Source: Planctomyces sp. (GTDB lineage Bacteria; Planctomycetota; Planctomycetia; Planctomycetales; Planctomycetaceae). Taken from it: 64,000 nt of DNA. The stretch's first letter is position 1, and each line of letters begins with the position of its first letter. Positions 52,661 through 59,337 of this stretch are shown in pieces. The position numbers were made by a program, and so were the translations under genes. The notes under the pieces are model-generated. The model did not search any database. It worked only from the letters and a program-made list of their open reading frames with translations, and was not told where the DNA came from. Where the stretch lies: assembly GCA_019636235.1 (NCBI GenBank), contig JAHBXW010000005.1, positions 1 through 64,000 on the forward strand, in the 5' to 3' direction.

Positions 52661-52851
52661 CGGGTCCACGGCCGCACGGCGCCGCGGCCCTGCGGGATGG
52701 GGCACATCGGGACGCCCGGGGACGGTTGCCCTGCGCGTCGGGCCGCATCATGATCGTGCCAGCGAATCCCACGCGGGCGGCGCTGATGGCTTGCCCATCG
52801 ACGCCGTCCCTGCCGACCCGCCTGTCCTCCTCTCCACCGAGGCGCCCGCCG

Positions 52852-53739
52852 ATGAGATGCTGCCCGCGCGTCCTGCTGCTGATCCCGGTCCTGTTCGCCC
52901 TGGCCGCCCCGCTCCCGGCCGCCGAGCCGGGGCAGCCCGTCCGCATGCTGTTCGTCACGCAGAGCGCCGGATTCCGGCATGGTTCCGTGACGCGGCCTGA
53001 AGGCAAGCTGGCCCCCGCCGAAGTCGCCATGATCGAACTGGGCAAAAAGACGGGGCTGTTCGCCTGCGACTGCACCCAGGACTGTGAGTCCGACTTTACG
53101 ATTGAGAATCTTCAGAACTATGACATCGTCGCGTTCTACACGACGCTGGACCTGCCGATTCCCGACGACGCGAAGCGCTACTTCTTCGGCGAATGGATCT
53201 ACCAGAAGGGACATGGCGTCCTGGGCTTCCATTCCGCCGGCGACACCTTCCACGACTACGCGCCCTACTGGGACCTCATGGGGGGCACGTTCATCGGCCA
53301 TCCCTGGAACGCCGGCGACACCGTGGTCCTCACCGGGCATGACCCCGAGAACCCGTTGTCCAGCATGTTCGGACCCGAGTTCTCGCTGAAGGACGAGATC
53401 TACATGTACCGGCACTGGCAGCCCCACAAGTGCCGAGTGCTGCTCAGCCTGGACTACGCCAAGAGCCCGACGGGAAGCCCCGTGCCGACGGGCCACGGCT
53501 ACCACGTCCCCGTGTGCTGGATCAAGACGATGGGCGAAGGAAAGCTGTACTACAACAACCTGGGGCACAACGAGACGTCGTGGGCGAACGCGACGTACCT
53601 GGAGTCGATCACCCAGGCGGTGAAGTGGATGCGGGGGGAAGTCGAGTGCGACGCGACGCCGAACCCGCAGGTGTCGGCCGAGTACGAGGCCAAGTCGGCC
53701 CGGGACTTCAAGGACCACGGATTCCGCGCCGCGCGGTGA
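52852..53739 (+). CDS. Exported ThuA-like protein
   Basis: A 295-aa exported protein (signal RVLLLIPVLFALAAPLPAAE). The ThuA domain fills the rest: RMLFVTQSAGFRHGSV, YDIVAFYTTLDLPI, GHGVLGFHSAGDTFHDYAP and GHNETSWANATYLESITQAV. The family is linked to trehalose and other sugar use and has a class I glutamine-amidotransferase-like fold; its reaction is not established. Planctomycetes carry many copies, often exported. The ATG at 52852 precedes the signal. It ends before a terminator. Confidence 0.85.
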   Translation: MRCCPRVLLLIPVLFALAAPLPAAEPGQPVRMLFVTQSAGFRHGSVTRPEGKLAPAEVAMIELGKKTGLFACDCTQDCESDFTIENLQNYDIVAFYTTLDLPIPDDAKRYFFGEWIYQKGHGVLGFHSAGDTFHDYAPYWDLMGGTFIGHPWNAGDTVVLTGHDPENPLSSMFGPEFSLKDEIYMYRHWQPHKCRVLLSLDYAKSPTGSPVPTGHGYHVPVCWIKTMGEGKLYYNNLGHNETSWANATYLESITQAVKWMRGEVECDATPNPQVSAEYEAKSARDFKDHGFRAAR

Positions 53740-53880: not shown

Positions 53881-54645
53881 TCACGTCGCCGGCGGATACG
53901 CGAACAACTCAATCAGATTGCCGTCCGGGTCCTGAACGTACATCTGCGTCGGACCATCCGGGCGCTGCTGCGGCCCCGCGACGATCGGCACGCCCAACTC
54001 GGCCAGTCGTCTCACAGCGAACGCCGCATCGTCGACCTCGAACGCCACGTGTCGCGTCCGGCTGATCTTGCACTCGTCCGGGATCCTCACGGCGGCCGGG
54101 CCGGTTTCCGGATGTTCGAGGATCAAATGGATCTGCGTGCCGCCCGCCTGGAACCACAATCCCGGAAATGAAAATGCGGGACGGGGAACTTCGTCCATCC
54201 CCAGCACGTCCCGATAGAACGTCCGGGATCGGTCGAGGTCGGCGACGACAAACGTCACGTGGTCGATCGACTTGACGCGCATGGCCCCGCGCGGCGCGGG
54301 CTCGGCGGCAGGCCCCGCGGCCAGCATGCGTTCCACCCCGTCGCGGCCCGTCATGCCTGGTTCAATGCCCATCTCCCGTGCCGCCGGCGTGCACTCGACG
54401 ATCTTCGCTTCGCACAAGTCGTCCGGCGTGACCAGCGGCAGTTCCGGCGTGCCCCGTGCGATGGCGATGGCCTGCCCGAACTTCGTCGGCGTGCCCATAT
54501 CGAAGATGCCGCAGCCCACGATACCGGCGGGGGTGAAGATCGCGCAGAACTGGCCGCCGTTCCAGGCGTGGCTCAGCCCGATGGCAGGCCCCCGTTCGAA
54601 CGACATGACGTGCTGGCGGGCGGCCTGAAGCGGTCGTGCAGGCAT
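53881..54645 (-). CDS. DUF1805 - VOC (glyoxalase-like) fusion protein
   Basis: A 254-aa cytoplasmic protein made of two unrelated domains. Residues about 15-110 match DUF1805 (YunC-like): a WNGGQFCAIFTPAGIVGCGI strand pair and GTPTKFGQAIAIARGT. From about 122 a VOC domain starts (MRVKSIDHVTFVVADLDRSR) with candidate metal ligands His129, His173, His199 and Glu247 (PDGNLIELFAY). VOC enzymes use a metal to isomerise or cleave small molecules. The fusion is in frame, without a stop or start between. The ATG at 54606 could also be used. It is 20 nt downstream of the yraN gene, in one operon. Confidence 0.8.
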   Translation of the reverse strand: MPARPLQAARQHVMSFERGPAIGLSHAWNGGQFCAIFTPAGIVGCGIFDMGTPTKFGQAIAIARGTPELPLVTPDDLCEAKIVECTPAAREMGIEPGMTGRDGVERMLAAGPAAEPAPRGAMRVKSIDHVTFVVADLDRSRTFYRDVLGMDEVPRPAFSFPGLWFQAGGTQIHLILEHPETGPAAVRIPDECKISRTRHVAFEVDDAAFAVRRLAELGVPIVAGPQQRPDGPTQMYVQDPDGNLIELFAYPPAT

Positions 54646-54665: not shown

Positions 54666-55061
54666 TCAGTGCAACTGGCCGAAGTCGACGGCGTCGAAGG
54701 CGTTCCGGGCGTGGCGGATTTCAGGGTCCCCCGGCCCGGTCCATTGCACTGTCACAATGTCGAAGCGGCCCCGGCGGTTCAACAGTCCCCGCCGTTTCAG
54801 CCAGGCCAGGGCGGCGCGCGTCAGCGTCCGCCGCTTCGCGGAATCGACACGCTCCGCCGGCGATTCTCGCAGCGCGTCCCGGCGGGACTTCACTTCGACA
54901 AACACCAGCACGTCGCCGTCGAGAGCGATCAGGTCGATCTCGCCGAACCGGTTCCGGGCCTGGCGCATGAGAATGCGATACCCCTGCCGCTTCAAGAACC
55001 GGGCCGCGAGGCGTTCGCCCTCATCGCCCAGCCAGCGTCGGAACCAGCCCGTGGAAACCAT
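54666..55061 (-). CDS. yraN: YraN-family endonuclease-like protein (UPF0102)
   Basis: A 131-aa protein with the UPF0102 signatures: [34 protein letters not shown] (active-site E and D), VFVEVKSRR (E and K) and FDIVTVQW. The arrangement E-x-D-x(n)-ExK is a PD-(D/E)xK nuclease fold related to archaeal Holliday-junction resolvases. Its cellular role is still unclear. The start at 55061 begins the family block; the frame extends upstream without similarity. It is the first gene of an operon with the DUF1805-VOC protein. Confidence 0.85.
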
Positions 55062-55165
55062 GCGAGACACGATCGCGCGCGGCGCTGCGCATGTCAAACG
55101 GCGGCGCGTTCCCTGCCGTTGCGCGCATTCGCGCCGACTTCCTACTGCGCGGCGGCCCAGGCCGT

Positions 55166-57685
55166 TTACTGGTTCGGCAGGGCGGCCGTCGACGTCGAGC
55201 GGCTGCCTTTCGAGGCGATCATCGCGCCCGCCACGTAACCGCGGGCCAGCGCCGCCCGATCCGGCGGCGTCAACTTGCGCTCGAGCGCCGACGTCTCCTT
55301 CCACAAGTCGGACGCCTTCCCGTCGCGGACGGCCGCCGCGGCCAGCAGCCACAGCGCGTCCTCACGGGCCGATTCCCCGGGCAACTGCCAGGCGAACTCC
55401 AGCGTCTTGACCGCGCCCGCCTCGCGATATTGCCGGCTGACCAGCCGCAGCACTTCCATATCGACGAGGTCCCGGTCGAACGTCGGCGAGCCGTAGGTGT
55501 TGCGCAGGTCTTCATAGACACTGAGAGCGTTGCCCTGCTGCCGCGCCCGGGCGATCCGCAGGGCGATCAGGTCCAGCGGGTCCTGCGGCAGCTGCTGCGG
55601 CGGAAACGCCGATTCGATCTGGCGGGCCGTGTCGACGTCGCCGCCGACGAACGCCTGGAAGGCGACATAGCCCGGCAGCCGCGTCTTGTTGAAGGGCTGG
55701 CGGATGGCAGCATCCGCGGACGTTTCGCGCTCCTGCATCAGCTGCCAGGCGGTTTTGGCCATGCCGCTGGCCGCGGCCTCGCGGAGGATGGCGATCTGCA
55801 GGTCGAAGCGTTCGGTGGCGAGGGCGGCGAGCGTCGTGACTCGCTGCTGATACTGGTAGAAGGCGCGGAATTTCGCGTCCCGATTGCCTTTGAGGTTCAG
55901 CGCCGCGTCGAGCTGATTCTCCATCGCGATGCGGTTCTCACACTCCTTGAGCAGCCGATCCGTTTCGGTGCGCGAGGGCGCCATGCCTTCGGTGAACCGC
56001 ATCGACGCCGCCAGGCTCTCCGACGCCAGGGCGTCGGACTTCAGCAGCCGGTGCACGGCGGCGACGTTCTCGGCGGCCAGCGCCGCCGAACGCAGCGGGG
56101 CCGAATCCGGCACGCCCGCGCGATTCGACGGCGAATTGTGAATCTCCGCCATGCCGGGCGTTTTCATCGGCGCCGGAGCCTTGATCTCCGCCAGGGCCAC
56201 ATCGGCCAGCTTGATCGCCGTTTGCGCGCCGGGCGGATCCCCCACCGCGAACCGCCCGTGAGCGACGTTCGCCCAGACCCGGGCCCGACCCGCTGGCGAA
56301 ACCCCGGCCAGGGCCGTTTCGATTTCCGGCGTGACGGCCGACAGCGATGCGGCATCCCGCGCCACCCTGGCGCCCCACACGGCCAGTCCGCCCTCGCGGA
56401 CGTCCGCGGCCGTCGCGCTCTGCGCCCACTTCAGGGCCCCCGCCTTGTCTCCCTCCGAGGCCACGATCCACGTCGCCGCGATCCACTGCGGGTGGTTCGA
56501 CGCCAGAAACGCCGGCACGGAGGCGACAGCCTCGTAATCGAATACGCGGCCGTAACTGGCCGCCATCCACAGCAGCGACGCGGTCGCCCGCGGGCCTTGA
56601 ATGGGGGTTTTCAGCAGTTCGGCCGCTTTCTCCGGACGGCCGTCCAGAACCAGCGCCGCGGCCAGCGCGCTGATGGCGTCCACCGGCCCTCGCGCCGAGT
56701 CCGGCACCCTGGCATGCTTGAGCGCCTCATCGAGCAGGGCCGGCTCGACTTTCCCCGCCGCCCGCTGCTGAAGATACAGCGTCACGAGCGGTTCAATCTG
56801 ATAGTAACCCGGGGCCGCGCTGAGCGCCATCAGCGCCTGCAACTGTTCGCGGGCCTCTTTGATGTCGCCCGACGCGGCGAACGCCTCGGCCGCCCACTTT
56901 CGGCCCCGCGCGCGATTCGGATTGTTGTCCCGGACGGCGGCCGCACGCTTCACGTCGTCGAGGCTGGCCTTCAGGATTTCCGGGATGGTCGACAGCGTCT
57001 GTCGCTGCTGCAGTGCGGGTGCGTTCTTCGGCAATTCCACCTTGGGAGTGGGCGCGACGGGCACGACGGTGTCGAGGGCCACTTCCTGCGGCTTGCTGCG
57101 AAACAGGAAGAACGCGCCGATGGCCAGCACGGCGGCGACGCCCGTGCCAATGCCCGCCAGCATGCCGGTCGTCAGGCCCTTCGACTTGCCAGCGCTCTCG
57201 TCGACGACCTCCTTCTTCGGGACGGGCGCCGTGAAGTTCGGAAACTTGCACTCCGCACTCGCGCAGCGGACCAGCTTCCCCTGGTGCTGCGGCGCGATGA
57301 AGCCCTTGGTTTCGCACATCGGGCAGACGACTTCGACGGTCCGGCCCTTCATCGGCCGGGGGCTGACGGGGACAGCCTTCTGCAGTGCCGCCGTGTCGAC
57401 GTCGAACGGGTTGTCGTCGTCGGGGGCCGTCGCGCCGGGCGCTCCGCCGCGCGTCATGGGGACGGGGGGTTTGCGCGCCGCCCCTCCAGCGGGAGGCTTG
57501 CCTGCGCCGGCCGCCGCCGGTTTGCCGGACGCCGCCGCCGGCCTGGCCGTTGCCGCGGGCTTCCCCGCGGCCGGCTTCGCGGACGAACTCGGCTTCCCGT
57601 TCAACGACGCGCCGCACGAAGGACAGTCCTCGGCGTCATCGTCGAGAATCGAAGCCTTGCAGAGAGGACAGGTGCGGAAATCCAT
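55166..57685 (-). CDS. Zinc-ribbon, Ala/Lys/Pro-linker, membrane-anchored helical-repeat protein
   Basis: An 839-aa protein. It begins with a zinc ribbon (CPLC at 6-9, CPSC at 21-24), then a low-complexity Ala/Lys/Pro/Gly linker, a second ribbon (CPMC ... CASAEC), one membrane helix ([20 protein letters not shown]) and about 600 residues of TPR-like helices. The membrane helix puts the ribbons in the cytoplasm and the helices outside, or the reverse. Such proteins often scaffold other proteins at the membrane. No enzyme motif. I do not know a named family. It stands alone, upstream of the yraN operon on the same strand. Confidence 0.65.
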
Positions 57686-58182
57686 GAGCTTGAGATGCCG
57701 GATTGGATAGGACAGTTCCCGCCTTCGGCGAGGCGCCCGCCCGCGTTCGTCAAACGCGCCGCGAACTCACGGCCGCGTGAAACGGTCGTGACGATCATGC
57801 CGGGATGCAACCTGAGACAGGCTCCGCCAATATAGCAGACAGCCCGTGCACGGGCACACGCCTTCCCCGACTCGACGGGATTCAATCACAGGGACAATCT
57901 GGAACGTGCCGGCCTTTGGGAACCAGGCCGGTTCTCGCGAGGGGTTGCCCCGATCGCCGAGTCCTGAGGGATGTGAGGAATGACAGGACGGACCAGCGAC
58001 TCGCTGCCTTCATTCTTCGCTGGCCGACCGCTCGACGAAAAGCCCTGACCGCCGGTTTTTCGAGCCCTCGCGGGATTCCTGGGACTCCAGGCCGCTCACC
58101 CATTGACCCCCGCGCAGGCCCCGCGCAGAGTGGCGCATCGATCGTCCCGCCCCCGCCCAACCCCCACGCACTGGAACTCCCG
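57686..58182. other. Intergenic region between divergent genes
   Basis: About 500 nt between the zinc-ribbon gene and the RNA methyltransferase. The upstream in-frame extension of the methyltransferase is open from 57805 but shows no conserved pattern. I see no RNA gene, terminator or near-consensus promoter. Confidence 0.4.
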
Positions 58183-59337
58183 TTGACGGCGCCCGCCCAG
58201 GACCTTTGGAATTTCGCCGCCGTCGCCGCGTTCGGACTCGAAGCCGTCGTCGCCCGGGAGCTCGTGGACCTCGGCTTCGATAAGCCGACCATCGAGGATG
58301 GCCGTGTCTGGTTTCGCGCCGATGCCGCCGGCCTCTGTCGGGCCAGCCTGCATCTCCGCTCGGCCGACCGCATCCTCCTCGTCCTGGGACGGTTCGACGC
58401 CCGCGACTTCGGAGCCCTCTTCGACCAGACGCGCGACCTCCCCTGGGAACGCTGGCTGGGACTCGACGCCCGCTTCCCCGTCTCCGGACGCAGCATCCGT
58501 TCTCAGCTGCACAGCGTTCCCGACTGCCAGCGGATCGTGAAGAAGGCCATCGTGGAACGGCTGAAGTCCGCCTGGAGCGTCGCCTGGTGCCCGGAGACGG
58601 GGCCGGAATACGCGGTGGAGGTCGCGCTCGTCGACGACCTCGCGACGCTGACCATCGACACATCCGGCGAGGGGCTGCACAAGCGCGGCTATCGCATTCA
58701 GGGGGGCGCGGCGCCGCTCCGCGAAACGCTCGCCGCGGGGCTCGTCCAGCTCAGCTACTGGCGTCCGGGGCGCCTTCTGCTCGACCCCTTCTGCGGGTCC
58801 GGGACGATCCTCATCGAAGCCGCCATGCTGGGACGCCGCATTCCCCCCGGACTCAACCGGACGTTCGCCGCGGAGGCGTGGCCACAGGTTCCCGCGCCTG
58901 TCTGGGACGCGGCCCGCGAACAGGCCCGCGCCGCCATCCTTCCGCCGCTGACGACTCGGCTCCTCGGCGGCGATCGCGACGCGGCCGTCCTCAACCAGGC
59001 TCGACGCGCCGCCCGTGCCGCGGGAGTCGCCGACGACATCGAGTTCACCAGCCGCGCCGCCAGCGACTGGACCGAGCTTCCCGCCTATGGGTGCCTGATC
59101 GCCAATCCTCCCTACGGCGAGCGGCTGGGCACGCAGCCCGAGGTCGAGGACCTGTACCGGCGTCTCGGCGAGGACTGCCAGCGGCTCGATGCCTGGTCGC
59201 TGTATGTGCTGACGGCGCATCCCGGATTCGAAGCTCTGTTCGGCCGCAAGGCCGACCGTCGCCGCAAGCTGTACAACGCAAAAATCGCCTGCACCTACTT
59301 CCAGTACTTCGGTCCCCGCCCCCCGCGCGAAGGGTGA
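58183..59337 (+). CDS. Class I SAM-dependent 23S rRNA/RNA methyltransferase (RlmL/YpsC-like)
   Basis: A 384-aa cytoplasmic enzyme. The N-terminus (FAAVAAFGLEAVVARELVDL) and a THUMP-like part are followed by a methyltransferase domain with motif I LLDPFCGSGTILIEAA and motif IV NPPYGERLG, which define the N2-guanine RNA methyltransferase group (RlmL/YpsC). It probably methylates a guanine of 23S rRNA. The start is a TTG at 58183, chosen because it precedes the conserved N-terminus; the only in-frame ATG (57805) would add 126 unrelated residues. It is 4 nt before the alpha/beta hydrolase gene. Confidence 0.8.
   Translation: MTAPAQDLWNFAAVAAFGLEAVVARELVDLGFDKPTIEDGRVWFRADAAGLCRASLHLRSADRILLVLGRFDARDFGALFDQTRDLPWERWLGLDARFPVSGRSIRSQLHSVPDCQRIVKKAIVERLKSAWSVAWCPETGPEYAVEVALVDDLATLTIDTSGEGLHKRGYRIQGGAAPLRETLAAGLVQLSYWRPGRLLLDPFCGSGTILIEAAMLGRRIPPGLNRTFAAEAWPQVPAPVWDAAREQARAAILPPLTTRLLGGDRDAAVLNQARRAARAAGVADDIEFTSRAASDWTELPAYGCLIANPPYGERLGTQPEVEDLYRRLGEDCQRLDAWSLYVLTAHPGFEALFGRKADRRRKLYNAKIACTYFQYFGPRPPREG

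Follow-up and report, generated by a model that had tools for sequence, protein, structure and literature searches.

A DUF1805-VOC fusion gene in a planctomycete, probably two partner proteins joined into one, with a possible link to menaquinone biosynthesis

The window analyzed here, a 64,000-nucleotide stretch of DNA from Planctomyces sp., carries a minus-strand open reading frame that joins a DUF1805 domain to a VOC/glyoxalase domain. The frame lies at 53881-54645, exactly as the original prediction had it, and encodes 254 aa; the in-frame combination of the two domains that the prediction described is borne out by Pfam matches over the cut-off for both. The features of the locus are the following:

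53881..54645, minus strand: DUF1805-VOC fusion coding sequence, 254 aa, ATG start, a single open frame
53905..54267, minus strand: VOC/glyoxalase domain (PF00903), aa 127-247, Pfam match, with conserved His129, His173, His199 and Glu246
54268..54324, minus strand: linker, aa 108-126, in frame; an ATG lies inside it at aa 122
54325..54516, minus strand: DUF1805 domain (PF08827), aa 44-107, Pfam match over cut-off
54511-54513, minus strand: codon of the invariant Cys45, inside the DUF1805 domain
54544-54546, minus strand: codon of Cys34, directly N-terminal of the DUF1805 domain
54666..55352, minus strand: yraN-like gene (UPF0102, PF02021), 20 nt upstream of the fusion gene

The PF08827 match scores 43.7 bits against a Pfam gathering score of 29.5, covers the whole model (positions 1-64) and is the only one in this genome, and the Glyoxalase match (PF00903) reaches 81.2 bits against 20.6. 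Third-position GC is 0.95 in the linker, above the values for the DUF1805 part (0.87) and the VOC part (0.80); this is what coding DNA should show, so the linker looks coding-like. The ATG at aa 122 may allow a free VOC domain to be made from the fusion gene as well. The true start of the yraN-like gene is probably inside the frame as drawn, since the 5' part of that frame overlaps an 839-aa frame. A ThuA-family protein (PF06283, 111.5 bits against 33.4) is encoded convergently at 52843-53739 on the plus strand, and a 510-aa plus-strand frame at 57805-59337 reads like a THUMP-type rRNA/tRNA methylase. We considered whether the yraN gene, the 839-aa frame, or the ThuA, CorC-like and methylase-like genes of the window are linked to DUF1805 and rejected this, as none has matches beside DUF1805 in the relatives' loci examined: the neighboring genes matched there only in the sister species G087, and the 510-aa methylase-like frame likewise had no counterpart next to DUF1805 in those loci. 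For the methanogen DUF1805 family, a table in one paper lists PDB 1QW2 and a link to the tRNA methylase Trm11 (PMC9425974).

The N-terminal domain belongs, with a score over the Pfam cut-off, to the DUF1805 family (PF08827; COG3377), which includes TA1206 (PDB 1QW2) and Bacillus YunC. The 1QW2 structure is the sole solved relative found by sequence, and it keeps the Cys-Gly of aa 45-46. Cys45 is present in all 60 aligned DUF1805 domains, and Cys34 in all 59 that have a letter at that position. The Pfam description of the family includes an N-terminal beta-strand tetramerization region. AlphaFold predicts strands at aa 12-49, but with pLDDT below 50 over aa 1-67. The VOC part is predicted mostly above 90 pLDDT as paired beta-alpha-beta-beta-beta modules, and Foldseek matches it to VOC structures with E values down to 1e-10. 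Given a good model for the VOC part and a poor one for the N-terminal part of DUF1805, we make no claim about an interface between the two domains.

In the VOC half, His129, His173 and His199 occur in 58 of 58 aligned domains and Glu246 in all 56 that extend to it. We take these to be the metal-ligand positions of VOC enzymes, and on that assumption the conservation of four ligand-type residues across 58 relatives favors the metal dependence proposed in the original prediction; the conservation is observed, and the metal role of the positions is presumed. The Pfam Glyoxalase family and the paired-module fold are shared with single-domain VOC proteins (3EY7/3EY8, 3HNQ, TnmS1, FosA/FosB and E. 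coli glyoxalase I), but the ligand-type set in the window differs from theirs in being His-His-His-Glu. None of the best 25 of the 37 NCBIfam families matched by the VOC domain reaches its cut-off, so a specific VOC enzyme cannot be named. Scores are 40.4 bits against 171 for FosB (PRK04101), 34.5 against 120 for glyox_I, 30.3 against 114.95 for the epimerase model and 31.3 against 320.2 for the catechol model, which leaves the domain under the equivalog cut-offs for Fos thiol transferases, glyoxalase I, methylmalonyl-CoA epimerase and catechol 2,3-dioxygenase.

How common is the pairing of these domains? A search with the DUF1805 half found 59 of 170 genomes of the window's family positive at E≤1e-10, and a smaller search of 150 of the same genomes found 55 at E≤1e-3. 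We assembled 60 loci covering these 55 DUF1805 genomes (the window standing for its own genome) plus a few genomes that have VOC only. Of the 60, 55 gave a DUF1805 match, which with the window makes 56 loci in 55 genomes. The original prediction called for a search for further fusions, and four turned up in other genomes of the same family (G428, G445, G463 and G437), bringing one-frame DUF1805-VOC proteins to five genomes. In all four, both Pfam domains score over their cut-offs; the G437 frame is cut within its VOC part by a contig end, in a fragmentary assembly of about 1250 contigs. A further 22 genomes have a separate DUF1805 gene immediately upstream of the VOC gene and in the same orientation, the aligned stretches lying 23-270 nt apart, and in one locus (L136) the two genes overlap by 1 nt. 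The domains are therefore fused or paired in 27 of the 55 DUF1805-bearing genomes among the 150 searched, always in the order DUF1805 then VOC. An adjacent VOC was not found at the other 29 of the 56 DUF1805 loci, of which at least two (L173, L192) have a contig end less than 200 nt away on the informative side. This count leaves out G543, G544, G548, G549 and G552, recovered in the 170-genome search only, whose DUF1805 frames of 115-142 aa are too short for a fusion.

Beyond the family, 8 more of the 392 genomes searched in the phylum carry PF08827, and none of them has a VOC match in the flanks available, 1.5 kb or less on each side. The DUF1805 domains of the window and its relatives differ from these in being fused to VOC or paired with it. 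Among 14 control genomes, B. subtilis and M. acetivorans contain DUF1805. A second fusion seemed to be present in the Phycisphaerae (L027), where tblastn pieces spanned residues 5-248, and was rejected on the open reading frames, which are separate dehydrogenase-like and VOC-like frames; DUF1805 was not found in this locus or in its genome (G526).

The original prediction also named the result that would undo it, a fusion confined to this genome that arose by loss of a stop. This account fails because the fusion recurs, in five genomes with differing linkers and four changes on the VOC tree. In that tree (58 domains, 5 of them fused) the fused state requires 4 changes, each of them forced by well-supported branches; a single origin appears in 0% of 200 bootstrap trees. 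The DUF1805 tree (60 domains) likewise requires 4 changes, 3 of them forced, in a tree of few columns and many open forks whose bootstrap is unsettled. If there had instead been one old fusion that was repeatedly split again, then the invariable order of DUF1805 before VOC and the scatter of fused forms across the tree would follow naturally. Such a history would require more events than four fusions, however, the linkers are unlike in length and sequence, and G395, of the same genus as the fused G437, has separate genes; we regard it as highly improbable. The sister species G087 is informative about the window's own genus. Its genes run in the same order as in the window: a frame matching the 839-aa one at 38% identity is followed by yraN (60%) and, some 50 nt further on, by VOC. 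DUF1805 was not found in its genome. This synteny implies that a whole DUF1805 domain was gained in the window's lineage or lost in G087, and a lost stop is not sufficient on its own.

DUF1805 is also joined to other proteins. In G486 (L185:2235-4853) it forms the C-terminal end of an 872-aa multi-span frame that we read by eye as transporter-like, and in G494 (L175:7685-8482) it ends a 265-aa frame whose N-terminal stretch is unrelated. Together with the 29 of 56 loci that lack an adjacent VOC, these cases are what would be expected if DUF1805 simply drifts among neighbors and fuses by chance, with no joint function. The VOC pairing, on the other hand, is held in 27 of 55 genomes in constant order while other neighbors vary, and it has become a fusion in four separate lineages, which makes chance joining an improbable explanation. 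The joining of DUF1805 to other proteins does mean that the fusion by itself is no proof of a shared substrate. The original prediction had inferred one; a shared function is the best reading of the pairing, and a shared substrate is one option within it, since complex formation, activation or co-regulation fit the data equally well.

Other DUF1805 contexts were noted in passing. Loci L204-L207 carry a divergent subgroup (44-48% identity to the window's domain) with no adjacent VOC, and G427 has a divergent copy beside a VOC-paired one. In family f70, DUF1805 has other neighbors: at L007, L009 and L010 it runs straight into a membrane-protein-like frame that resembles a PAP2-type phosphatase, and G117, G148 and G281 have both DUF1805 and VOC on different contigs. 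LpdD, described as a prFMN chaperone with a Pba3/4-like structure (PMC10865409), was considered as a model for DUF1805 and set aside, as no link was found.

Clustering the genes around these loci for recurrent neighbors revealed that a MqnE-type radical SAM protein (aminofutalosine synthase) is frequently encoded upstream of DUF1805; the representative scores 508 bits on TIGR03700 against a cut-off of 434.55. In several loci mqnE is itself preceded by a gene for a UbiA-like prenyltransferase, likely mqnP, a name that remains short of proof because the representative passes the TIGR01475 cut-off and falls under the MqnP-specific ones. Thirteen loci have mqnE upstream of DUF1805 on the same strand, at about 620 nt or less in 11, at about 1.1 kb in L124 and at 2.6 kb in L129; in L190 the two genes overlap by 4 nt and VOC is absent nearby. 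A common gene order is mqnP-mqnE-[DUF1805]-VOC-small membrane protein. The last of these, a small hydrophobic protein encoded after VOC in many loci, whether or not DUF1805 is there (e.g., L135:9937-10134 and L123:8342-8593), matched no Pfam family and is predicted from its sequence to be a membrane protein.

The association extends to VOC genes that have no DUF1805 partner. Among 150 family genomes, mqnE is over its cut-off in 130 and VOC is found at E≤1e-18 in 134; counting only mqnE matches over the cut-off and genomes with a listed VOC, 119 have both. In 45 of these 119, VOC is on the same strand as mqnE and no more than 6 kb downstream of it; in 27 the distance is at most 400 nt. These 45 genomes fall in 20 of 58 genera by hand count; 32 lack DUF1805, and 13 have it, one of them (G497) elsewhere in the genome. 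For a 6 kb interval on one strand of a several-Mb genome, the chance expectation is well under one in 119, an estimate that treats the genomes as independent although relatives are not independent draws.

Relatives of both domains thus adjoin mqnP-mqnE of the futalosine pathway in many genera, but the window's fusion gene sits away from mqnE. In its genome mqnE is on contig C1 and the fusion on C41, and neither VOC nor DUF1805 was found within 19.5 kb around mqnE. In 74 of the 119 genomes, some of them fragmented assemblies, VOC does not lie within 6 kb of mqnE. DUF1805 is not needed for the futalosine pathway, since mqnE-type matches occur in 149 of 150 family genomes and DUF1805 in 59 of 170, so that most mqnE-bearing relatives lack it. 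We also considered whether the pair replaces a missing step of the pathway and saw no gap for it to fill: PF02621 (MqnA/MqnD-type) proteins are present in 101 of 101 genomes searched and PF01048 proteins in 60 of 61, PF01048 being a broad family in which a match does not prove a futalosine hydrolase. Beyond the family, five loci with VOC of about 40% identity (L262-L266) have no mqnE within flanks of about 1.5 kb, and VOC relatives in other groups (L012-L091) have no DUF1805, mqnE or mqnP in the flanks examined, with PF08827 in 3 of 22 tested genomes of that set. The general role of DUF1805 cannot be futalosine-specific, because the domain occurs in B. subtilis and M. acetivorans.

These observations could be accommodated if DUF1805 and VOC, functionally linked as we propose, were a small-molecule detoxification or stress module (thiol, aldehyde or quinone stress) that in some genera just happens to sit in one operon with mqnE. 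Detoxifying enzymes are numerous in the VOC superfamily, Fos thiol transferases and glyoxalase-type families top the NCBIfam matches (all far under cut-off), and many pairs, like the window's copy, lie away from mqnE. Downstream of the pair in L122, L123, L129 and L133 come genes for a TauE-type exporter (PF01925) and a DJ-1/PfpI protein (PF01965), which would suit such a module too. What this explanation does not readily account for is the recurrence of the mqnE neighborhood in about 20 genera, including those without DUF1805, and we consider it a possible but less probable alternative.

A full-text search returned no paper combining "futalosine" and "glyoxalase" and none naming two or more of yunB, yunC and yunD together; the retrieved passages that name DUF1805 do not concern its function. 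YunC is named in an expression table (PMC10050317). For five planctomycete genomes, a table row can be read as showing futalosine genes (PMC3914697).

We favor reading the fusion as a two-protein unit merged into one chain, whose halves in most relatives that pair them are two separate proteins from neighboring genes. It is very likely that the two domains act jointly in this protein, and a shared function is well supported. The C-terminal VOC domain would be the enzyme, with a putative metal site at His129, His173, His199 and Glu246, and the N-terminal DUF1805 domain would be its partner subunit, helping it to assemble, stabilizing it or activating it, perhaps by way of the invariant Cys45. 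As VOC recurrently adjoins mqnP-mqnE in the family, whether DUF1805 precedes it or not, the pair would most likely act in the futalosine route to menaquinone or right next to it, with an intermediate or by-product of that route as its target. To our knowledge, neither VOC nor DUF1805 is a known enzyme of this pathway. The menaquinone link is moderately supported by gene neighborhood, and we put the probability of the full explanation, including this branch, at roughly 55%. If one were to go further, DUF1805 could be the cysteine-bearing subunit of an unrecognized VOC metalloenzyme of futalosine-type menaquinone biosynthesis that carries out a step after MqnE or protects one, with Bacillus YunC and archaeal TA1206 likewise partnering other small enzymes; this extension is speculative and on balance doubtful.

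DUF1805 occurs in both bacteria and archaea, and a recurrent fusion partner combined with an operon context makes its role testable. The mqnE operon context is the best handle, if an indirect one, on what the DUF1805-VOC pair does. The question now raised is whether DUF1805 binds and tunes a VOC metalloenzyme and whether the pair touches menaquinone synthesis. In other bacteria the futalosine pathway attracts interest as a drug target, and if this reading is true, DUF1805 and VOC would be new parts for it.
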